Notes under the pieces: model-generated | What the model saw: only the letters and a program-made list of their open reading frames with translations | Databases searched by the model: none | What the model was told of the DNA's origin: nothing | Assembly: GCA_903833275.1 (NCBI GenBank) | Contig: CAILEP010000022.1 | Location: 1-64,000, forward strand | Direction of reading: 5' to 3' | Source: an uncultured Bdellovibrionales bacterium | GTDB taxonomy: Bacteria; Bdellovibrionota; Bdellovibrionia; Bdellovibrionales; UBA1609 | Length of the DNA stretch: 64,000 nucleotides | Part shown: positions 12,402 to 24,982 of the stretch, one piece after another | How the letters are laid out: each line of letters opens with the position of its first letter | How positions within the stretch are numbered: position 1 is the first letter of the stretch | Made by a program: the position numbers and the translations under genes

Positions 12402-13046
12402 ATGAAGTCATTGGCCGTAATTATCGCAGCCGTATCCCTGGTTGCAAGCGCCTCTTTCGCAGGCGCAGTTGAAGCGGGTAAAATTGAAGGCAAAGTGAAA
12501 ACAGAAGGCCAAGTTACTGGCGCAACTGGCGCAAAAGTAACGACTGAAGCCAACGTAGCCGGCTCGAGCGTTCGCTCAGGCAGCACGTCGACAGCTAAAG
12601 GCAATATCATTTCAAATATTGCAAACACTAAAGGCGCTGCAGCTGCAATCGGTGGCACATGTGAACCTGGTGCGTTTGATTCATTGTCAATTGCTGAGCG
12701 CGCGACTATCGCGGCTGCGGTAAGAGCCGGTCTTGCTGGCGATCGTTGTGCAAAACAATTTGACGCTGAGACTGTTAAGACTATCGCTGCGATGGACGCT
12801 GCCGAATTGGCTGCTCTAAAAGCAAGCGGCGCGACTTCTGCAACCGATTCAAAGCTTTCTGATAAAACTAAAGGCAGTTTCGTAGTTCAAGGTGCGAAAG
12901 TTTTGGCATCTCGAATCAACGTAAGCGTTCAAGAAGCTGAAGCCCGTATCGAAGGCACTTGCGCAAAAGCTTGTGACGTTGAAAGCTCGGCTCTTTGTGT
13001 AGCCCCAGTTTTGAACGCAGCTCGCGCAGAAGCCGCTTCTCTGTAA
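12402..13046 (+). CDS. secreted Ala/Lys-rich protein of unknown function
   Basis: This 214-residue precursor has a clear signal peptide (MKSLAVIIAAVSLVASASFAGA, cleavage near residues 20-22). A low-complexity Gly/Thr/Val segment of about 60 residues follows (KIEGKVKTEGQVTGATG). The C-terminal domain is mostly helical with six cysteines (GTCEPGAF, GDRCAK, GTCAKACD, ALCVAP) that could form disulfides in the periplasm. I recognise no family. Translation starts from AAGGAG, and a strong terminator follows at 13092. Codon choice (many GCA, GTA and AAA) differs from its GC-richer neighbours, which fits high expression. Confidence 0.8.
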   Translation: MKSLAVIIAAVSLVASASFAGAVEAGKIEGKVKTEGQVTGATGAKVTTEANVAGSSVRSGSTSTAKGNIISNIANTKGAAAAIGGTCEPGAFDSLSIAERATIAAAVRAGLAGDRCAKQFDAETVKTIAAMDAAELAALKASGATSATDSKLSDKTKGSFVVQGAKVLASRINVSVQEAEARIEGTCAKACDVESSALCVAPVLNAARAEAASL

Positions 13047-13122: not shown

Positions 13123-13334
13123 GGCCTTGAGCGCCCGCCGGGGGCACCGCCCGCGCCCCGTCGATTTACTAAGCAGCTGCTTGCCAATTTTCAGCTCAAT
13201 TGTATTTAATGGCCTCCGCGGACCAAAACCCCTCGCGCCGACAGCATATAACTAATTGATATTGCTTATGTTCTTAATGCCTTGGCCGAGCTGACCTGGG
13301 CCACTTTTTGCATTGCTATTGGGTGGAGGACTCT

Positions 13335-16300
13335 GTGCTTTTTATCGCAAACCTTATCGCGTTTATAATTCAACTTCCGGCGGCAACCGCACAGGCCCAG
13401 GTGTGCCAACCGGGTGCGGTGGCGAACACCGTGGCGATCAGTGCTCACTGGAATACTCCTACCGCCAATTTAAGCCGTGAGTTCATGACCACGGCTAAAG
13501 AACTTGATGGCCTCAGCAAAATCGTTGCCCAACTGAAAGACGACAGCTTGCTGACCATGCCAATTCAAAGTCTCGACAGTTTTGAAAATCGTTTGGCGAA
13601 AGCGCAAGGCGATTTTAGCACTTTAAAAAAACATGTTCTTTTGACCGTAATCTCAATCGATGCTTCTCACCGCTTAGCCTCGACCAAGCTGATCGAGGGA
13701 TATCTTAAACTTGGCTATACCCTTTTGAGTTTAGAGCTCTTAAGTCACCCGTTTGGCGCCACCATCGAATCGGTTCGCAATAGCTACGGGCTTGTCTTGA
13801 CGCACAAACAGCTTGAAGAAATCTACCCCCAAAATCTAGGCATGAGTGACGGCGTCGAAGCCCACTTAATGAAAAAACAAAATTCGAATACGGCGACTTA
13901 TCAACTAGCTTGGTCGGGTGAAAATATTTATCGCCTGCTCGTGCGTGCGGCGGCGCTTTCAAAAACCACACGCGACTCGAAGCAGGCCTACTTATCAACC
14001 GTGCGCTGTGAACTTGGCCGCCTGATGATCGGCAAGCTAATTGCCAACGAATCACTTTTGGGCCAAGAGCACCAAGCCTTACCCGTAGACCTAGAACAAA
14101 AGCTTTGCCTCAATGCGCCGGTGCGCGAATTTTTCGAACTCGCGCTTACCGATTCTCAGTACAGCAAAGAGCAAATTCTCCGCAAAAGCCTCTCGAGCCA
14201 TTGGCCCAAGACCCCCGATAGCCCTGAGCTCATTGCCTTCTTTACAGCCTTCGGCTCAAAAATTGGCCGACTTGATTTACTACTCGACCCAGACTCAACT
14301 TCGAACATTGTTAGACAAATGATCGCTGAAAGCGACAGCACCAGCAAAGTTACGATTGATACCAAAGCTCTCTCGCAACAGCTCAACCAATACATCACGA
14401 ACCAATATGCGAATACGCCCGACCTATTGCCACTGAAGTCTCTTTGGGGCGACGCCCAATTGCAGAAAACTATCTTAGATGTTTTCAATGATTGCCAGTT
14501 TGCCGTTCAAGATGCCTTTGGCCAGCCGCTCGACGCTCAGACCATTGGTCAAATGCTCAACAAATCTGACGCTCTCACTTTCGTATTCAGTCTTATGCGC
14601 GGGATGGCCACCTCACGAGTTGAGATGATGGCGATGGACGAGACTCAACTCAAACTTTTTCTACGCGACTTTATTAAGAATCAGAGACGCAATGCCACTA
14701 TCGAAACGATGCTTTACTTCTTCAATAGCTATACTCACCTGCCCGGCTATGACGTAAATGATCTTATGGCCGCCGTTCGAAAAGAAGCGTTGCCGCTGAT
14801 CGACCAAAAAATCGATCAGATTTGGGCCGCCGGGTCGCTCGACAAATTTGTAAATGTTTTGGCCGCCGATATTTTGAAAAACCGCAACGGGGCCCAATCA
14901 ATGAAAACAGCTCTGGCCGAATACAGCGGGCAGCTCGCCACCGCCGCCAAAAACGTCGAAGATATTCTCGACCCAGAAATAACCGCGGCTGAAAAGTTAC
15001 CCTATGATGTCGCCGCTCTCAAACGCGCGCTTTCACCCAAAATCGCCACCCTCACCGGCAATACCAAAACACTGGTCAACGTTTTGAGTGCCGAAAAGTC
15101 GTTTGATAAAAGCAAACAGATCTGGGGCGAGCTCAAATCACTGCTGCAAGACCAAGCGACCGCCGCCAATGTGAACTGCCGACCGATTAACTTTTTCGAT
15201 CGGCTTCATATAAGTGAAGCTCGCCAGGCCGTGCAGCGCGACTGCTCGGCGGTAAATCTTTTCGCCGGCGCACTTGGCCTCGACGAGAAAGCCCCACCGA
15301 CTCAGTTTTTAAATGTTTACTATTATTTGCGCCAGAATGTTTCTTCAAGCGAACTCGAAACAATCACTGATCTTTATCGAAATGAACTGGTCGCCCCGAC
15401 CCTCAATGACTTTAGGCCATTGATGTATCACGTCGACCCAAAAAACCCCAAATCAGAGACGTTTTCACATTACTATGCCCACCTGTTTGGCGCCCATCTT
15501 GGCACATTGCCAAAAATTCGTGAAGTGCTTGAACGCGGCACCAAAATTTCGCGCGAAGTTCTTACTAAAGTTGTGAACGCGAAAAAAGAAAGCGATCTTG
15601 ATTGGCTTATCACAAAGACCAATGTGATCAACGAAGTGCTGGGCCAAGGCCAACTTGCCGATTACCTCTCAAATCTGAACGGTTTTTCGGCCACCCCAAA
15701 TGACCCGACCAGCGGCCAGCTCTTCGCCGTTGAATCAACGCGCGCCATTGCCGAGCGGTCGCTCAATGATCGCGAGGGCTTTGTCTTCCCGAGCCTGATC
15801 GAATATCACCGTCATTTGCAAACCGTCGCGACCCAAGATGATTTCTTACAGCAAGATATTCGCGATGAATTTATGGCTGCGCACGGCACGCTCGGCACCG
15901 TTATTATGGGCACCATGCTTTTCAAATGGGCGTATGGTTTTACTCCAGGCTGGATGGGTCGTAAATGGGTAGCCTCGGCACTCGAGCGCCCGTTCGATCT
16001 TGCTGGCAATGCCATCAGTGCTTGGGGCGATTACGTGATGATGCTGATTGTTGGCCATGCCTACGGCACTTATCAGGCAAAACAAAATTTTCAAACCGAG
16101 CTCGGCCACGTCAACGACCTACTGCACGCCGATTCTCTTCGAGTGGGCACCACCGACAACCCGCTACCGCTCGTCGAGTGGGACGTTTACAGCCGCGTTT
16201 ACCATCTTTATGACAGCAAAAACACAGCGGCGAATTCGTCGCTCGTCCAAGATGCGTTTTGGGGCCTGTTTCCGTTTTCATACGGCACGGTGGGTCGCAT

Positions 16301-16739
16301 GCTCGGCAAAGTGACCGCCAACTTGCGAGCCAAGTCGAATCTTCAAATAGAAAACATGAGCACAAGCGAACGCCTGGCGTTTGAAGAGACCTTGCGTCGG
16401 CGCGGCACTCGGCAGTTAGCTAAACTGCAATTCTATTTGGCCGCCTTACGCCACCCCCACTCGTTAGATGTGGCAGAACTCTACATGAACTTACAGACGA
16501 TTCGCCGCAGCCCGCTTTCAAAAACCAAAACCGGGCAGGCTGTTGAAATTCAACACGCTGAAGACGCATATAGAAAAATTATTTCTGAACTTGGTAGCCA
16601 AATTCAAAACTTTCATGATCACCCCAATTTGATGGAGTCTTATGCCAAATCTCTCTTTGGCGAAGGCGGCGACACTCGCCAGCTCGATGAAATCTATCGT
16701 GAATGGGTTCGTATTTTTGTAAACGGAGAAGAGCCATGA
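13335..16739 (+). CDS. large exported protein of unknown function (1134 residues)
   Basis: Translation probably begins at the GTG at 13335, six bases after GGAGGA, giving a signal peptide (MLFIANLIAFIIQLPAATAQA) with cleavage before QVCQPG. The mature part is almost wholly helical, Leu/Ala/Lys/Asp-rich, with few cysteines, and resembles no family I know. Two hydrophobic segments lie near residue 860 (LGTVIMGTMLFKWAYGFTPG) and 900 (AISAWGDYVMMLIVGHAYG), followed by a helical tail of about 230 residues. The stop overlaps the next start (ATGA), so the next exported protein is made in a coupled way. It is likely a membrane-tethered periplasmic or secreted protein. Confidence 0.8.
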   Translation: MLFIANLIAFIIQLPAATAQAQVCQPGAVANTVAISAHWNTPTANLSREFMTTAKELDGLSKIVAQLKDDSLLTMPIQSLDSFENRLAKAQGDFSTLKKHVLLTVISIDASHRLASTKLIEGYLKLGYTLLSLELLSHPFGATIESVRNSYGLVLTHKQLEEIYPQNLGMSDGVEAHLMKKQNSNTATYQLAWSGENIYRLLVRAAALSKTTRDSKQAYLSTVRCELGRLMIGKLIANESLLGQEHQALPVDLEQKLCLNAPVREFFELALTDSQYSKEQILRKSLSSHWPKTPDSPELIAFFTAFGSKIGRLDLLLDPDSTSNIVRQMIAESDSTSKVTIDTKALSQQLNQYITNQYANTPDLLPLKSLWGDAQLQKTILDVFNDCQFAVQDAFGQPLDAQTIGQMLNKSDALTFVFSLMRGMATSRVEMMAMDETQLKLFLRDFIKNQRRNATIETMLYFFNSYTHLPGYDVNDLMAAVRKEALPLIDQKIDQIWAAGSLDKFVNVLAADILKNRNGAQSMKTALAEYSGQLATAAKNVEDILDPEITAAEKLPYDVAALKRALSPKIATLTGNTKTLVNVLSAEKSFDKSKQIWGELKSLLQDQATAANVNCRPINFFDRLHISEARQAVQRDCSAVNLFAGALGLDEKAPPTQFLNVYYYLRQNVSSSELETITDLYRNELVAPTLNDFRPLMYHVDPKNPKSETFSHYYAHLFGAHLGTLPKIREVLERGTKISREVLTKVVNAKKESDLDWLITKTNVINEVLGQGQLADYLSNLNGFSATPNDPTSGQLFAVESTRAIAERSLNDREGFVFPSLIEYHRHLQTVATQDDFLQQDIRDEFMAAHGTLGTVIMGTMLFKWAYGFTPGWMGRKWVASALERPFDLAGNAISAWGDYVMMLIVGHAYGTYQAKQNFQTELGHVNDLLHADSLRVGTTDNPLPLVEWDVYSRVYHLYDSKNTAANSSLVQDAFWGLFPFSYGTVGRMLGKVTANLRAKSNLQIENMSTSERLAFEETLRRRGTRQLAKLQFYLAALRHPHSLDVAELYMNLQTIRRSPLSKTKTGQAVEIQHAEDAYRKIISELGSQIQNFHDHPNLMESYAKSLFGEGGDTRQLDEIYREWVRIFVNGEEP

Positions 16740-18253
16740 AGTCTCTTCTTCGAATTCTCATTTCTATTTCGGTGGTGGCGGCGCCATTTGCGGGCTTTGC
16801 CGAACCCAACTCGACCCCTCCGGTGCAATTTAAAATGATGACATCGGTGCCAGCCTTGGTGCGCGACTTTATTACTAAACACTCGCGCGATGAATTCGCC
16901 TACCGACTGACATCTGATGAGTTCGCCAAAGCCCTTGAAGATTCTAAAGGCTACACCGACGGTGTTTTTAATGCCCAAGCGAGTAAAGTATTGAAGATGA
17001 TGAGTCAGCCCGAAGACAGCCTTGTCGCATTTCATAGGGCAAAGGCCGAACAGGCGCTCGCGGCTGAAGCCCATCAATTGGTCGACAACCTCATCAATGA
17101 TGTTTTTAGACACAATCGACCGGTCAGCGATCTCAATATGCTGCTTATTACACTCGCGCACGATTATGCTTTCGATTCTATAAATGCCGGCCCACTCGAC
17201 TATTTGATTAACGCAATCAACGAATACCATTTCTCCGAACCTCAGTTGGCAGAAATTCGCAAACAGTCGAGCGACGACTATCGCATGGCGCGCGCTCAGT
17301 ACGGCACTTATGGCCTCTATATTCTTGGCTCGGCCATCGGCCTCATTAAGTATGGCCCGGCTATTTTGCAAAGAAACTTTCCGGGGCTTTTTCGCGGAGG
17401 TTTGCTGGCGAGCCTCAAAGAAGCCATTGGCCTCGGCGAGAAATCGGCTGCGGGTGCGGCAAATAAATCGACAATCACATCGGCTGAAAAATCTGAAATG
17501 ACTGCGGTGGCTAAAACCGCCGAAACCTCAGTGGCTGCACGAACAATTGATGAAAAATATGAAGCGTTGATTAAAGAGCTTGAAGAAATGGAGTCTCACC
17601 TCCCGACTCAGCAGACGTTGCCTTCTGAATTGCGTCGCTTGGTTGAGAACATGACTCGCTCGCGAGTTTTACGCAGCATGGACGTCGCTCGCGGCTCGTT
17701 ACGCTGGCTTCAAAAATATGGCATCTTGACCAACCTTAAACTGGCCGTCGGCCTTTATGCCGCAGGCAAAGCCGCCGGTGGAATCGATATTCTTGGCCAT
17801 GCTTTGTTTGATAAATATGTCGGCGAGACCGTCGACAATAGCTATATCAATATCAACGACGAGAAGGGTCAGAATTTGCGTAGTGACTACTTCGATGGTT
17901 TGGCCATATTGAATTTGTCTTGCAAGAGCCGCGCGCTTGTTTATGCAACCCAATCCGCCTTAAACGCTGATGATCATCTCGCCGCCGTTAAGAAACTAAA
18001 TGGCGATTATGTCGACTACGTTTTGTACAAAAACTATGCGCCCCGCTACGACAGCAAGGTGACATTGCCCGAAGGCATCAGTGTCGACCCTGCCACCGGT
18101 ATTGTAAGCTACAAAATCCAAATCAAGGACCGAGTGCTCACCGATCATTTTGCCTGCGCCAAATTAAAAGGCTCGCCGAGCACGCGCATCGAGGTCAGCC
18201 TGACCGAGGTGCTTTATGATCTTATGTTGAGTTACAAACAATTACTTAGATAG
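16736..18253 (+). CDS. exported protein of unknown function, coupled to the 1134-residue protein
   Basis: This 505-residue precursor starts at the ATG at 16736 that overlaps the previous stop (ATGA), with GGAGA upstream. The signal peptide is MKSLLRILISISVVAAPF with cleavage near AGFA-EP. A helical ectodomain contains HNRPVSDLNMLLITLAHDYA. Two hydrophobic segments sit near residues 190-210 (GLYILGSAIGLIKYGPAIL) and 335-355 (LKLAVGLYAAGKAAGGIDIL), with a charged coiled-coil-like linker between. A beta-rich C-terminal domain follows with the DPATGIVSYKIQIKDR segment. No family is recognised. The layout (signal peptide, ectodomain, two late hydrophobic segments) repeats that of the upstream protein. 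Confidence 0.8.
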   Translation: MKSLLRILISISVVAAPFAGFAEPNSTPPVQFKMMTSVPALVRDFITKHSRDEFAYRLTSDEFAKALEDSKGYTDGVFNAQASKVLKMMSQPEDSLVAFHRAKAEQALAAEAHQLVDNLINDVFRHNRPVSDLNMLLITLAHDYAFDSINAGPLDYLINAINEYHFSEPQLAEIRKQSSDDYRMARAQYGTYGLYILGSAIGLIKYGPAILQRNFPGLFRGGLLASLKEAIGLGEKSAAGAANKSTITSAEKSEMTAVAKTAETSVAARTIDEKYEALIKELEEMESHLPTQQTLPSELRRLVENMTRSRVLRSMDVARGSLRWLQKYGILTNLKLAVGLYAAGKAAGGIDILGHALFDKYVGETVDNSYININDEKGQNLRSDYFDGLAILNLSCKSRALVYATQSALNADDHLAAVKKLNGDYVDYVLYKNYAPRYDSKVTLPEGISVDPATGIVSYKIQIKDRVLTDHFACAKLKGSPSTRIEVSLTEVLYDLMLSYKQLLR

Positions 18254-18558: not shown

Positions 18559-19443
18559 ATGACAAAAGACCTACACACACACACCTTAGAATTAGTTCGA
18601 GAAGAGCGCCGCCTCACGGGGCTGGTAATCGAAAACCTGCAAAAAATCTCAGACCTGAATCTTTTTTTAGAAATGGGCTATAGCTCGCTTTTCACCTATT
18701 GCACCCGCGCCCTCGGCTACTCGGAGGCCTGCGCCTATCGCCGAATTCAAGCCGTGAAGGTGGCTCGCCAACTGCCAGAGGTCAAAGAAAAGCTAAATTC
18801 TGGCGTCATTAATTTAACAAATCTTTCGATGGCGCAGAGCTTAATCACCAGCGCAACTCTTTCGCTCGAGGAAAAGCGCGAGGTTTTGCACAAGATTGAA
18901 AATTGCACCAAGCGCCAGGCCGAAATAGCCTTGGCTCAATTGGGTCGCACTCCAAATGGCCCTGGCCTTGGCCAAGAAAAACTTACCTTTCGTAATGGCA
19001 ATGAAGCCTTGCTGCAACTACAAGTTTCTAAACAGACGATAGAGAAACTTGACCGGCTAAAAAAACTTCGCTCGCACAAAAACCCCAATATGACCTACTC
19101 TGATCTCGTCGATGATCTTTGCGACTGCCTGTTGCGAAAAATTGACCCGTTGGAGCAAAAAACAGACCGAACGAAAAATTCAAAATCGACTTTGATTCGA
19201 TCGGCCAGGTCGACGACGCACAACAATCGTCGTTTCATTTCGGCAAAACTCAAGAGAGCCGTGTGGCAGCGAGATAATGGTCAATGCACTTTCGTAGACC
19301 CTCAGACAATGAATCGCTGTGAATCGATGCATCTTTTGCAAATCGATCATATAAAGCCCGTCTTTCTTGGCGGAGAAGCATCGCACAATAACCTAAGACT
19401 ACTTTGTCACGCCCATCACAAATTTAGAGATAAAGATTTTTAG
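18559..19443 (+). CDS. HNH endonuclease-domain protein
   Basis: This 294-residue protein has an N-terminal helical domain of about 110 residues (ISDLNLFLEMGYSSLFTYCTRALGYSEACA, split here by description only), typical of the HNH proteins abundant in Bdellovibrio-like genomes. A basic linker follows, then a C-terminal HNH nuclease: KRAVWQRDNGQCTF around 230, LQIDHIKPVFLGG (the catalytic DH), and NNLRLLCHAHHKF at the end. It probably nicks or cuts DNA with a divalent metal, but its role is unknown. The ribosome site AAGGAG lies close before the ATG. It stands alone as a single gene. Confidence 0.88.
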   Translation: MTKDLHTHTLELVREERRLTGLVIENLQKISDLNLFLEMGYSSLFTYCTRALGYSEACAYRRIQAVKVARQLPEVKEKLNSGVINLTNLSMAQSLITSATLSLEEKREVLHKIENCTKRQAEIALAQLGRTPNGPGLGQEKLTFRNGNEALLQLQVSKQTIEKLDRLKKLRSHKNPNMTYSDLVDDLCDCLLRKIDPLEQKTDRTKNSKSTLIRSARSTTHNNRRFISAKLKRAVWQRDNGQCTFVDPQTMNRCESMHLLQIDHIKPVFLGGEASHNNLRLLCHAHHKFRDKDF

Positions 19444-19505: not shown

Positions 19506-20330
19506 CTATTTCTGCGAATCGGCGCTATGAGCAGTGGCCGCCCCTTGACCTACACCTGAACCGCGAATGCCACTTAGCGCAGCACTAATCTGCCGCGCCC
19601 AATATTTGCCGGCACTTTCGGTTCGGTGAATACCATCGACAGTTTGATTGCCTTCGCAACTCTTGTGAAGAGAGTCACAACTGCGGGTGGCGTTACGACT
19701 GTCGACCAAACGACAAAGCCCCTGGGTCGCTTCTCCCAACGAATCGTAAAATTCGTCAAGATTGCTCTCGCGAATTTCGACGTCGGTCGGTGCGGCGCCC
19801 TTCTTTTTGTTTTTATAACCAATGTTTTGCCCCATATTCATATGGGGTGGGCCGATCCAGTCGCAGCCGCCCCGAGCCTTCGCCATTTGCGCAATTTTGA
19901 GATACCTGAAATCGACGTGCGGCGCCCCGAGCGAATTTGCCCCAAGCGCGATGATAACGCGGCCACCGTGGGCCTCCGACAAAACCACATCAAGATCAGG
20001 CATCTTGCCGTCGCCACCACAAAGCGCTAAATTTTCTTCGCCAGGGCGGCGAACCTGACATTTTTTAGGTCCTTTTTTATGCGGAGGGTTTTTGCGATCC
20101 AACCAGTGCTCAGGAGTACTCGACTCTGTACAATAGAGAGTTACGGCCTGACCCTGCTTAGTGAGCTCGCTTACTAACGCGCGCCCGAACGGCCCACAGC
20201 TCAACGAATCTCCGATAACAACGGTTGCCGCCTTGCCGGTGCCAGGCTCAGCGGCGACACTTACAGGCGACCCCAATGGCAAAACGAACCACGAGAAGAA
20301 AAACGTAATGACCAAAAAAATTATTCGCAT
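19506..20330 (-). CDS. exported SGNH/GDSL-type hydrolase
   Basis: This 274-residue precursor has a signal peptide (MRIIFLVITFFFSWFVLPLG, ending near VAA-EP). SGNH blocks are visible: block I VIGDSLSCGPFG with the nucleophile Ser, the ALGANSLG segment as the Asn block, and a C-terminal DGIHRTESAG with the Asp-His pair. Six or more cysteines suggest an oxidised periplasmic enzyme. Such enzymes act as esterases or peptidoglycan/polysaccharide deacetylases; the substrate here is open. The tail is Gly/Ala/Ser-rich and probably disordered. It lies between other genes for exported proteins. Confidence 0.82.
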   Translation of the reverse strand: MRIIFLVITFFFSWFVLPLGSPVSVAAEPGTGKAATVVIGDSLSCGPFGRALVSELTKQGQAVTLYCTESSTPEHWLDRKNPPHKKGPKKCQVRRPGEENLALCGGDGKMPDLDVVLSEAHGGRVIIALGANSLGAPHVDFRYLKIAQMAKARGGCDWIGPPHMNMGQNIGYKNKKKGAAPTDVEIRESNLDEFYDSLGEATQGLCRLVDSRNATRSCDSLHKSCEGNQTVDGIHRTESAGKYWARQISAALSGIRGSGVGQGAATAHSADSQK

Positions 20331-20454: not shown

Positions 20455-22230
20455 CTACCCTTGCGGTGGCTCTGACACAACCGGCAGGCTGCGGGCGCGT
20501 TCAATGGCTTGTTGTAGATATGAGAGTGCTGGCTTAGATAGCCGAATGCCATGCTGACCCAGCCATTTGGCGCCGTCGAAAGCGGCCGCAAAGCCAGCCG
20601 AGGTGGCCCCGTTAAAAATATCAGCCACTGGGCCCTTAGTCAGCGCGAACGCCATAATAAAAGAATATAAAATGCCGCGGCGCTGGCTATCGAGATCTTG
20701 CACCTCGCGTAGAAAGTGAGTTCGTTCGCTCGCGGGCAGCGACGAATCACTTTGCCTTTCAAAATAGCCAAAGACCTCATTGTAGGTTTGGCCATAGTTT
20801 ATGACGTCAAGCCATGAGTAACCAAAGTTAACGGCGAAATTTGTGACCGGAAAGCAAAGCAACTTCATCGATTTCAAACCATTTTTTAGACGGCCGGCCG
20901 CCATTAAAGTTTCGCCAATTTTAAAAGCTTTAACGGCGAAGGCGACTCCACGCTCCCAAGGGAACCCACAAACCGCAATGTTCGCCGCAATCAACAGCCC
21001 CATGCGCTTACCATTGCGATAAGTCACATCTTTGGCGTGCTCTGCAATTAGACCTGGCGTCACGGTTTTATTTTTTTCACCATTGCTGCCGGTCAAAATT
21101 TCTTGAAAATTTATACTCGCATCTGAGTCGCGCAAGATATTCATTTCTTCGGAGGGGTGAGCCAGAACATCTTCAACGATCGGGTTGTACTCAAGTAAAT
21201 TTAACCACTCTTCGCGACTCGCGTTGGTCTTCTCACCGCCCGCTGTCTTAGCTTCAGTCTTAACGAGAAACTCACGAAACTCATCGAGTGCACCTTGAGC
21301 TGAACTCACGATGACATCGGCTATTTTTTCAATATCAGCATCTGAAAGCACGGCCGCTGGCGCCAGCGCTACAAATGGATAGAGCTGCACGAGAGCAAAA
21401 TAACGCCGAGTTAAGTCATCACGCTCAGCCGCGAGTTGGTAGATACCTAAATCGAGAGCCGAAAGTTTTTGGGCCATGGTGTTAGGCTCTACAGATAAAT
21501 TCTTGTCTACCGTGAAATTAAACATTTCGGTCTTGGCATTGTAAGCCAGGTGAAGACTGCGGCAACCATCGGCGTGCTGCCCGAACAGAACGTAATCACA
21601 AAGCATTTGCAAGTGGCCATCGAAATTCATCGGGTATTTTATCGGCTCGCCCTGCACGTCTTTTAGCCGCGCCATTGAGAATTTATAGTTAATGTCATTT
21701 CGTAAAAATGACTGTATCTCGACTGCACTAAAAGGCGAATTCTGGATGTCTTTTTTGCGCGCTAAATTGCGAGTGATAATATCTTCTAAGGGGTCGTCTT
21801 GCAGACCCATTAACATTGGCGACTGCTCAATTTTCTTTTGCGCGGTATTTTTGTTGCCGAGATTCACCAGCTGCTCGCTGAAATCCGCTTGAAGAGTTCG
21901 AAAATTGCTCGCACTCAAAAGGTTAATCATAAACTGATACTGCCGCATTCGCGGGTATTCGAAGGCCGTCGTTTGACGAATAAAGCCGACCAACTCAGCA
22001 CACACTTCAGGGTTTGTGGTATTTTTCTTTGCAAAGCAGCCCTTCAAAGCTTGAGCGCGGGTCAAATTAGCCTGCAGAGAAAAACTCACTCGCTCGCGAA
22101 CCGCGTTTAGCAGCGCCTGCTCAGCAGTCACCTGGGTCATACTGTTAGCGTTGCTATTGCCACCCCAAACATTTGAAAGGGGCCCAAGAGCCAAACTTAG
22201 AGACAGAAATAGTGTCATGAGTGATTTCAT
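20455..22230 (-). CDS. exported protein of unknown function (591 residues)
   Basis: The start at 22230 gives MKSLMTLFLSLSLALGPLSNV, a clean signal peptide. An ATG at 22284 would add 18 residues, and neither start has a strong ribosome site. The ectodomain is helical, with four or five cysteines (KGCFAKKN, PEVCAE, LCDYV, GCRSLH). Two late hydrophobic regions follow at about residues 415-435 (MGLLIAANIAVCGFPWERG) and 470-490 (LLCFPVTNFAVNFGYSWLDV). The motif W-x-D followed by G-x-x-Y and F (SWLDVINYGQTYNEVFGYF) resembles one in the 1134-residue protein (SAWGDYVMMLIVGHAYGTYQ). The gene is divergent from the exported Clp-like ATPase. No known family. Confidence 0.78.
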   Translation of the reverse strand: MKSLMTLFLSLSLALGPLSNVWGGNSNANSMTQVTAEQALLNAVRERVSFSLQANLTRAQALKGCFAKKNTTNPEVCAELVGFIRQTTAFEYPRMRQYQFMINLLSASNFRTLQADFSEQLVNLGNKNTAQKKIEQSPMLMGLQDDPLEDIITRNLARKKDIQNSPFSAVEIQSFLRNDINYKFSMARLKDVQGEPIKYPMNFDGHLQMLCDYVLFGQHADGCRSLHLAYNAKTEMFNFTVDKNLSVEPNTMAQKLSALDLGIYQLAAERDDLTRRYFALVQLYPFVALAPAAVLSDADIEKIADVIVSSAQGALDEFREFLVKTEAKTAGGEKTNASREEWLNLLEYNPIVEDVLAHPSEEMNILRDSDASINFQEILTGSNGEKNKTVTPGLIAEHAKDVTYRNGKRMGLLIAANIAVCGFPWERGVAFAVKAFKIGETLMAAGRLKNGLKSMKLLCFPVTNFAVNFGYSWLDVINYGQTYNEVFGYFERQSDSSLPASERTHFLREVQDLDSQRRGILYSFIMAFALTKGPVADIFNGATSAGFAAAFDGAKWLGQHGIRLSKPALSYLQQAIERARSLPVVSEPPQG

Positions 22231-22309
22231 ATATAGAGATGTATTCAAATTGTGTTCCAACTTTAAGTGGGCCTTCTGCTTCATAAAGCGTTTGAATGCC
22301 CGAAATAAG

Positions 22310-22338: not shown

Positions 22339-22462
22339 TGCCAGCTGGTGAATTATTCGACATGCACAATTTGTAACCTATTGAAATCACGTAAATAAAC
22401 AAGCCCTTTTGTTGGTATCGGTATTGCTCATGTATTTGGTGTGCATAAAAGCAGGAGTGTAT

Positions 22463-24982
22463 ATGAACCCCTCTCATAGCCCCAAAATCAGCCGACAAGG
22501 TATCGCTTACGTCATCGCAGCCAGCATTTTTCTGAACCCGATGTTAGGCGCCTACGCCGCCGAAATACCGAGCGGCAAAACCGTCTTGGGTTGGTTTGGC
22601 CTAGGCGCTTCTGCTGCCGAAAAAGCCGCTGCAAAAGAGTCGGCCGCAAGAGCGGCCCAAGAAGCCGCCGACAAGGCAGCCAAAGGCACCGAACACTCTG
22701 TTGATAATATTCTTTCACCACAAACCAGAACTGAACCAACCCCCAAAGAGCTTGAAGCCGCCAAAGAATTGAACGCGATGATTATCGACGGTAGCAAAGG
22801 GCTTAAAGGCACCGGCGGTGTTTTTAGTGATCTCGACTCTCTGGCTATTGTTGGCGCAAGATCGAAAACCACTGGTCGAATTGAAGAGGTTGATAACCTC
22901 GTGCTGGGCTTAAACAACCCCGACAACACTGGCGCGATGCTTGTTGGCACCAAAGGTGTTGGCAAATCGCAACTGATGGTCGCACTTGCTGAGCGCATTC
23001 GCCTTGGGCAGGTGCCTGAATACCTGCGCGGCACTCGTGTGATCGAAGTTGATATCGACAACGCTCTCGCTCATACCTTTGGCGACTTTGCTCGCCAAGT
23101 CGATAAATTCGAAAAGATTCTAAATGAATTTTTCAGAACTCACCCGCAGACAACCGCTAATGCTGCCGAAGTGATCTTCTATTTTCCGAAAGGCATTAAC
23201 GAAGAATCTTTAGATCACTATCTGGCAAAAATTCGCCAAACCTACGGCAGCCGACGAGCTCGAATTGTGATTGAGGGCTCTGAAGCGAAGCTCGACGAAC
23301 TTGCTAATAAAAGCTCGTACCTGAGCTTGTTCTATAAAGTGCGCGTCAATGAGCTTTCACCGCCCGAAGTATTTGCTGTTCTTAAAGAGGCTAGCCTCGA
23401 AAAGGCCAAAGCAAAAAATATCATCGTCAGTGATGATGTTCTTGAATACATCACCGAAAACGCCAAGCGCTTCTCGCCTGACGTGGGCAGCCCGCTTGCT
23501 GAATTGAAACTACTTACTAATTCTTTATCAGCTAAAGAAGTCGCAGGTCACAGCCCGCAATCGGCCATAGTTAATCTTTTGAACGCCGAAAAAGCACAGC
23601 TTGAACGAGAAATAGGCAGCACGCGAAGAATGATCAAACTCACAATCGACCCCGCGACCGGCAAATATATACCGGTGCTCGATGCTAATGGCCAACCGGT
23701 ACTTAGAGCAAACGCTCGCGATTTAGTTAAAGAGTTGCCAAAACGCCTAGCCAAAATGAATGACGAAATTGCCAAAGCGCAGGCCCAATTTGTAAACCAG
23801 CGTGGTGATTTACGCGACCAAATTGCTCGACTCAAAGAGCAGGTTCGCATCGCGAAAGAAAGCGGCAACTCGTCAGCTATGGACAAAGCCGAGGCCGATC
23901 TACAATCGTTAAAATCTCTGTCGCTTTACGACGTCGCGCTTGCAGTTAAAAAACAAAACCCCAATTTAACGATCGAAGAAATTTTGGGCTTGCGAAGTGC
24001 TACCACCGTCGCTGAGCGCGAATCGCTTTTCAAAAAGGTCGTTTTTAATCAAATCGAAATGGTTCGCTCGATTATGAAAGCCGGCACCGCCATGATTAAC
24101 GGCACCCTTCGCAAGGGCAAACCGCTTCGCAAAGTGTTTTATCTCGGCCCCACTGGTGTTGGTAAAACAGAAGTCGCAAAAGCCTCGGGTCGTATCGATT
24201 TCGGTCGCGAGGCTGAAGTTATCAACATGGGCAATTTTCTCGATAAAACTTCACTCACTGTTTTCACTGGCGCAGGCGCTGGTTATGTCGGCTTTGACAA
24301 AGGCTCTTTGCTGGTAAACACGGCCCGTAATTTACGCCGCGGGGTTCTCGTTCTTGATGAGCTCGAAAAAGCGATTAAAGCCAACCCCGAATTACAAGGT
24401 GTGTTGCTACCAGTTTTGGATGAGGCCAAAATGGTCGACCCGCGTGGCGTCGCTGCCAACTTTGAACAGATTGTGATCGTCGTGACCTCAAACGCTATTA
24501 CCAAACTTGAAGGCGCTGAGAAAGAGCTTTATCTTTCGCTGAATGAAAAAGCTCGTAAGAAATTTATTATTGATAAATTGCTCTCGCTTGACATGGGTTT
24601 TACCCCAGAGTTTTTAGGTCGCTTTGACGACTTCGTTTTTGCTAATGATTTAGAAAACGCTTCTTACCTGGCTATTATTCAAAAAGAAGTGAATAAATTT
24701 TGGATCGAAGCTCTGAAGCCACGTGGTATCGACGTCGAAATCACCGATAGCGCGCGAGCCCAAATGGCAAAAGAAATTATCGGCTCTACCCGCGGCTCAG
24801 GCCGTGATGCCATCGACGTGGCCAACGATCACGTGCGCGAAGTTTATAACCTCGCGATGACCGATCGTCAGTACATCCGCCCAGACGGTAAACCCCCGGT
24901 TGAACTTGTTATTGAAGACGGCGACCGATGGATTATCGATTACAATGAGGCCGAGGGCTTTACGCACAGGGTGGCTGAATAG
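22463..24982 (+). CDS. Clp/Hsp100 (ClpB-like) AAA+ ATPase with an export signal
   Basis: The ATG at 22463 follows AGGAG by nine bases and yields an 839-residue protein. Residues 1-32 form a signal peptide (basic PKISRQ, then GIAYVIAASIFLNPMLGAYA, cleavage AYA-AE). The Clp N-domain is missing and an Ala/Lys-rich helix takes its place. AAA-1: Walker A GTKGVGKS (162-169), but the Walker B position reads VIFYFPKG without the Asp-Glu pair, and the LERRF arginine fingers are replaced by YLSLFYKV. A coiled-coil middle region (about 375-485) resembles the ClpB M-domain. AAA-2 is intact: GPTGVGKT (562-569), pore loop GYVG (607-610), Walker B VLVLDELEKA, and PEFLGRFD with the arginine finger. It is divergent from an exported protein gene. 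Confidence 0.85.
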   Translation: MNPSHSPKISRQGIAYVIAASIFLNPMLGAYAAEIPSGKTVLGWFGLGASAAEKAAAKESAARAAQEAADKAAKGTEHSVDNILSPQTRTEPTPKELEAAKELNAMIIDGSKGLKGTGGVFSDLDSLAIVGARSKTTGRIEEVDNLVLGLNNPDNTGAMLVGTKGVGKSQLMVALAERIRLGQVPEYLRGTRVIEVDIDNALAHTFGDFARQVDKFEKILNEFFRTHPQTTANAAEVIFYFPKGINEESLDHYLAKIRQTYGSRRARIVIEGSEAKLDELANKSSYLSLFYKVRVNELSPPEVFAVLKEASLEKAKAKNIIVSDDVLEYITENAKRFSPDVGSPLAELKLLTNSLSAKEVAGHSPQSAIVNLLNAEKAQLEREIGSTRRMIKLTIDPATGKYIPVLDANGQPVLRANARDLVKELPKRLAKMNDEIAKAQAQFVNQRGDLRDQIARLKEQVRIAKESGNSSAMDKAEADLQSLKSLSLYDVALAVKKQNPNLTIEEILGLRSATTVAERESLFKKVVFNQIEMVRSIMKAGTAMINGTLRKGKPLRKVFYLGPTGVGKTEVAKASGRIDFGREAEVINMGNFLDKTSLTVFTGAGAGYVGFDKGSLLVNTARNLRRGVLVLDELEKAIKANPELQGVLLPVLDEAKMVDPRGVAANFEQIVIVVTSNAITKLEGAEKELYLSLNEKARKKFIIDKLLSLDMGFTPEFLGRFDDFVFANDLENASYLAIIQKEVNKFWIEALKPRGIDVEITDSARAQMAKEIIGSTRGSGRDAIDVANDHVREVYNLAMTDRQYIRPDGKPPVELVIEDGDRWIIDYNEAEGFTHRVAE

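Follow-up and report, generated by a model that had tools for sequence, protein, structure and literature searches.

Introduction

Clp/Hsp100 unfoldases are motors driven by ATP that as a rule do not leave the cytoplasm, and for this reason an exported Clp-type motor would be surprising. A candidate gene of this kind, here called gene D, lies in the window, a stretch of 64,000 nucleotides from an uncultured Bdellovibrionales bacterium (contig CAILEP010000022.1), and it raises the question whether a bacterial unfoldase of the Hsp100 type may work outside the cytoplasm. Periplasmic protein quality control is generally held to be ATP-independent; this view would be challenged by an exported Hsp100 that is conserved, keeps an intact motor ring and is encoded in a five-gene cluster of exported proteins.

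Results and discussion

Start and signal peptide of gene D

The features of gene D and its two rings (D1 and D2) are as follows:

22453..22457, + strand: ribosome-binding site AGGAG, ATG 5 nt downstream (read in the sequence)
22463..24982, + strand: gene D, 839 aa, putative exported AAA+ protein of the Clp/Hsp100 type, composed of a signal peptide, a degenerate D1, a helical linker and an intact D2
22463..22558, + strand: predicted Sec signal peptide, residues 1-32, cleavage AYA-AE (signal-peptide rule)
22946..22969, + strand: D1 Walker A GTKGVGKS, residues 162-169 (alignment); no Walker B, pore loop or arginine fingers in the rest of D1
24146..24169, + strand: D2 Walker A GPTGVGKT, residues 562-569 (alignment)
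24281..24292, + strand: D2 pore loop GYVG, residues 607-610 (alignment)
24356..24361, + strand: D2 Walker B Asp-Glu pair, residues 632-633 (alignment)

The reading frame starts with the ATG at 22463 and its stop codon ends at 24982. The first-pass annotation had proposed that a strong ribosome site fixes this start, and the position of AGGAG agrees with it; an upstream TTG (22409) is disfavoured by AGGAG as well as by the homologues, so that the ATG is preferred. The n-region MNPSHSPKISRQG has a net charge of +3 (N-terminal amine counted) and leads into the hydrophobic core IAYVIAASIFL, with the predicted cleavage after residue 32. An export signal with basic start, hydrophobic core and AYA-AE site had been claimed from the window alone, and it also holds for the relatives of the protein. 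The signal-peptide rule used here is simple and crude and was calibrated on 29 cytoplasmic ClpA/ClpB proteins from the same order; it is positive for 6/6 members of the D family and for 0/29 of these controls, which makes the signal peptide more than a chance resemblance. The first-pass annotation had named homologues that begin after residue 90 and lack a conserved signal region as a refutation of export; instead, all six complete N-termini open with a signal peptide. Judged by sequence, the gene D product thus carries a conserved Sec signal peptide.

The same N-terminal segment could also be read as an uncleaved anchor, with the AAA rings in the cytoplasm and the unfoldase tethered to the inner face of the membrane. 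Such a protein would have ATP at its disposal, and in two relatives, G001 and G036, the charges on either side of the core give no clear preference for N-in; the residues that follow the core are net positive there, which counts against export and means that the charge rule alone does not settle the topology of these two proteins. However, a signal-peptidase-type cleavage site follows a short core in all family members, the n-regions are positive, the partner proteins described below are predicted to be exported and the cysteine counts of two of them (B and C) are even. We therefore regard a cytoplasmic, membrane-tethered unfoldase as very unlikely.

Distribution of the D family

A D-family profile run over 141 genomes of the order retrieved six members with 592-1061 bits, followed by an ordinary ClpB with 329 bits. 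No further members were found among 369 genomes of the phylum, where the best other proteins reached 338 bits. A seventh member in G003 is a fragment cut at a contig edge. The protein from the window shares 24-27% identity with its relatives in five other genomes, all of which are incomplete assemblies; at least three are metagenome assemblies, and the two named records are Bdellovibrionales metagenome assemblies. Mis-assembly or a chimera is ruled out by the same gene arrangement and the same flanking aldehyde dehydrogenase in independent genomes.

The source genome also encodes a normal ClpB and a normal ClpA, so gene D is an addition and by no means a housekeeping ClpB or ClpA gone astray. 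Two other identities were considered and rejected. A tblastn search against phages gave partial matches only (about 26% identity and at most 77% coverage among the matches listed), and PADLOC, searched for an anti-phage system, hit generic AAA parts only and left the cluster partners without a match.

Two rings of unequal fate

Pfam places a Clp-type AAA_2 domain (PF07724, E 5e-27) at residues 555-723 of the gene D product, and finds weak P-loop matches only at residues ~140-210. A missing Clp N-domain had been noted before and is confirmed here, since Pfam gives no match to it and the structural alignment to ClpB and ClpC begins near residue 114. Likewise, Pfam detects no ankyrin repeats, and the protein has no protease domain.

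The description of the rings in the first-pass annotation, a first ring that keeps Walker A and lacks the Walker B acidic pair and the arginine fingers, and a second ring with all motifs and a GYVG pore loop, agrees with our alignments. When D1 of the window protein is aligned to ClpB, its Walker B strand reads IFYFPK, HTFG stands where the pore loop KYRG is expected, sensor 1 is altered and the LERRF arginine fingers are absent. D2, by contrast with D1, is intact (GPTGVGKT, GYVG, VLVLDELEK, VTSN and FLGRFD). The same division runs through the family. The D1 Walker A is mostly kept in all six members, whereas 0/6 have in D1 a complete Walker B Asp-Glu pair, KYRG, the Tyr of the pore loop or the LERRF fingers. 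D2 retains Lys and Thr of Walker A, Asp and Glu of Walker B, the sensor-1 Asn and the arginine finger in 6/6; its pore-loop Tyr is present in five of the six, and both pore-loop glycines are invariant in the family alignment. The exception is G002, with Leu in place of the pore Tyr and GDPGSAKT as Walker A.

At ~25% identity, catalytic residues kept in 6/6 D2 rings, against an intact Walker B pair and a pore-loop Tyr in 0/6 D1 rings, speak for selection on an ATPase and against drift. Catalysis by D2 would accordingly appear to be under selection in the D family, and hydrolysis by D1 was probably lost in the common ancestor of the family.

An exported gene D product that is no longer a motor, and which serves as a nucleotide-stabilised scaffold or as an ATP sensor with D2 motifs kept for hexamer assembly, would fit a D1 already decayed to a binding-only ring, the two D2 changes in G002, and the scarcity that is assumed for free ATP outside the cytoplasm. 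We consider it unlikely, because D2 has retained its arginine finger, its sensor-1 Asn and both acidic residues of Walker B in all six members despite the low identity, because Glu and finger are far less needed by a pure binding ring, as D1 itself demonstrates, and because neither pore-loop glycine has ever been exchanged within the alignment.

An AlphaFold2 model of the gene D product, built from five relatives, has a mean pLDDT of 66.8, with cores mostly at 75-89. Both AAA folds are present in the model, and about 550 residues, from about residue 114 onwards, align with ClpB, ClpC and ClpA. The modelled protein matches ClpB 6qs6 with Z 27.4 and rmsd 9.4 over 555 residues, and modelled D2 alone matches the ClpB NBD2 4fcw with Z 26.9 and rmsd 3.5 over 299 residues. 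Between the rings the model places long helices (368-393 and 416-467), at low to middling confidence, which are candidates for a coiled-coil middle domain of the ClpB/Hsp104 kind.

A conserved cluster of predicted exported proteins

Four further genes accompany gene D in the window:

12402..13046, + strand: gene E, small Ala-rich putative exported protein, 214 aa, upstream of gene A
13308..16739, + strand: gene A, large putative exported protein, about 1130 aa, start approximate; no known family
16736..18253, + strand: gene B, 505 aa, putative exported protein; 4-nt overlap (ATGA) between its ATG and the gene A stop
20455..22284, - strand: gene C, putative exported protein, divergent from gene D, likely start 22230 (MKSLMTLFLSLSLALG); hydrophobic segments, even Cys, no known family

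The N-termini of the E, A, B and C proteins are signal peptides or similar segments, and most of the four, with the exception of E, contain additional hydrophobic stretches. Cysteines number 2 or 4 in B and 6 or 8 in C, the count being even in 12/12 B and C proteins, and mature D proteins have 0 or 2; invariant cysteines are present in the alignments of A, of B and of C. Among the 141 genomes of the order, gene A is found in exactly the same six genomes as gene D. Gene C occurs in these six and in G003, where it accompanies B and the D fragment, and weakly in two others; gene B has the same distribution as C within the genomes whose loci were drawn. In G036, which belongs to another genus, A-B-C-D are consecutive on one strand. 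Taken at the level of sequence, gene D is part of a conserved cluster whose other four products are likewise exported.

A, B and C had no match above cut-off in Pfam, the same was true of A, B, C and E in NCBIfam, and the profiles of these four gave no significant match to PDB sequences. The gene C model (pLDDT 57.7) is too weak for a fold search, and the search returned no significant match. A likeness of gene C in G052 has an E of 2e-5 and 76% probability in an independent profile comparison; the likeness of E and C in that genome rests partly on alignments that already contained G052 sequences.

Two other genes lie between B and C. One (18559-19443) is HNH-endonuclease-like and has a weak match to IscB (E 2e-4) far below cut-off, and the other (19506-20330) encodes a putative exported protein with an SGNH-hydrolase-like start (VVIGDSLSCG) and no family match.

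Compared with G004/G005, the cluster proteins are 23-31% identical and the neighbouring aldehyde dehydrogenase is 70-71% identical, i.e. the locus is retained while its genes evolve far faster than their neighbours. This disparity is what one would expect at an interface with other organisms, and the gene D product might be passed on through the outer membrane, to another cell or to the surroundings, and act there on foreign proteins with foreign ATP. The title of a 1986 paper by Ruby and McCabe, as cited in PMC4834554, refers to an ATP transport system of Bdellovibrio, which would suit such a life style of the protein. Yet the only secretion signal identified is the one for Sec, and fast evolution can arise in other ways; passage across the outer membrane seems highly improbable to us.

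A probable motor outside the cytoplasm

The product of gene D is probably the motor subunit in an Hsp100 machine that works outside the cytoplasm. After cleavage of the signal, mature D would fold in the periplasm or beyond, presumably as a hexamer. D1 would serve as a collar that does not hydrolyse ATP but, in most members, still binds nucleotide, while D2 alone would hydrolyse ATP and pull polypeptides through the GYVG pore loops. A, B and C, with their signal peptides, hydrophobic segments and conserved cysteines, could provide a membrane-bound platform or adaptor for D. At the cell envelope, such a machine may unfold proteins, thread them or dissolve their aggregates, its substrate being a guess, and we can likewise only guess that its ATP would come from the periplasm or from outside, e.g. 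from lysed or invaded cells.

That an unfoldase of this kind might work outside the cytoplasm had already been suggested from the letters of the window; a prey or host compartment, named there as an example, is one conceivable place among others. As far as export is concerned, the suggestion draws support from six signal peptides in six relatives at ~25% identity, from the exported neighbours and from the even cysteine counts of B and C. The accompanying statement of a periplasm without ATP goes too far, because micromolar ATP in the E. coli periplasm and ATP-dependent reactions in the periplasm are cited in reviews (PMC7432876 and PMC4289276, respectively). A TLC-family ATP/ADP translocase can be dismissed as the source of ATP; none is present in the source genome, which counts against an exported motor, and a single partial match was found in the 141 genomes.

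Comparison with known Hsp100 systems

The gene D product resembles ClpB/Hsp104 in having two AAA rings and a linker in the same order, with D2 motifs and a pore loop that are the same in kind, and its best PDB profile match is a ClpB (1qvr). It differs by its signal peptide, the absent N-domain and the degenerate D1, and it scores 142 bits against a ClpB cut-off of 1232. ClpB/Hsp104 proteins are marked by two complete AAA domains, whereas here only D2 is complete, D1 having lost its arginine fingers and pore loop as well as Walker B and sensor 1. Unlike ClpA/ClpC, the protein has no IGF/IGL ClpP-docking loop between sensor 1 and arginine finger (inspected by eye in P0001, G001 and G036). The marks of the broad Hsp100/Clp group, a Clp-type AAA_2 domain and a GYVG pore loop, are both present. 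By defining features, the gene D product is a member of the broad Clp/Hsp100 superfamily and is not a ClpB, ClpA/C, CLPB or HSP101.

In human CLPB, a single ClpB-D2-like AAA domain does the work. This protein (Skd3) is a ClpB-type ring in the mitochondrial intermembrane space (PMC9934407), thus outside cytosol and matrix, and its structure 7us2 matches the gene D model with Z 24.5; CLPB has ankyrin repeats and no D1, whereas the window protein has a degenerate D1 and bacterial partners that are predicted to be exported. Plasmodium HSP101, the ClpB-type unfoldase of the PTEX translocon, acts in an extracytosolic compartment with dedicated partners (PMC7355975). It shares with the gene D product an export signal on a ClpB-type unfoldase (by the crude rule) and a similar predicted fold (6e10, Z 25.1); it differs in having two active rings and an N-domain, and the window partner proteins, the candidates for partners of the EXP2/PTEX150 type, match no solved structure by profile. 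Both are precedents for a ClpB-type ring at work beyond the cytosol. On our best reading, the gene D product may in principle be likened to human CLPB or to HSP101 of the malaria parasite; if this is true, these eukaryotic extracytosolic Hsp100s would have a bacterial counterpart, and ATP-driven protein unfolding in this phylum would extend beyond the cytoplasm.

Other exported AAA+ proteins in the phylum

Further Clp-type AAA+ proteins of the order that are predicted to be exported also sit among exported genes, which supports an exported machine. Distant AAA+ proteins with signal peptides were found within runs of exported genes in G029, G020, G025, G052 and G059. In a tree of D2 the exported proteins have branches of mostly 1.5-5 changes per site and ClpB about 0.1-0.5, lengths at which one origin and several are inseparable.

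A second exported class combines two or three Clp-type AAA domains with an M41 (FtsH-type) protease domain and is present in 36/369 genomes of the phylum. HExxH is found in 29/29 proteins inspected and a signal peptide in 22 of the 27 with uncut N-termini, several of those scored without one being truncated or just under the threshold of the rule. The AAA domain of FtsH is cytoplasmic. The likeness to FtsH (M41 with HExxH) belongs to this second class, as the window protein is without a protease domain.

Tentatively, bacteria of this phylum may possess dedicated extracytoplasmic AAA+ systems, namely an exported ATP-hydrolysing Hsp100 with its own platform proteins and, separately, exported AAA-FtsH-type proteases. 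If true, a wider and apparently undescribed set of exported AAA+ proteins would exist in Bdellovibrionales and the phylum, including putative exported ATP-dependent proteases. Our search of the open literature, as distinct from subscription papers, returned nothing relevant on periplasmic or exported bacterial AAA+ proteins.

Some individual loci deserve mention. The G029 run (L123:8462-19690) comprises six exported genes (AAA 909, 601, 1142, 352, 391 and 246 aa) whose sizes recall the window cluster, the partners having no clear sequence similarity to it; its AAA protein has a close relative in G137 only. The source genome itself encodes, at G000:C35 (L119:9627-13916:+; L036), a predicted exported protein of 1429 aa in which three Clp-type AAA domains are followed by an FtsH-like M41 protease domain (HELGH) at the C-terminus; its relatives are those in 36/369 genomes of the phylum, most of them with signal peptides. 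In G044, an exported 1056-aa protein (L120:12459-15629) with a formylglycine-generating-enzyme-like domain (PF03781, E 8e-26) adjoins the AAA-M41 gene. Most exported AAA proteins of the M41 type (L134-L162) have a cysteine close to the C-terminus (last ~25 residues), which often forms part of a C-x-x-x-L-like motif (NRCADLL, KTCADEL or IPCSKIL) and is possibly a sorting or docking tag; the 1056-aa partner in G044 carries NRCADLL too, just after its signal peptide.
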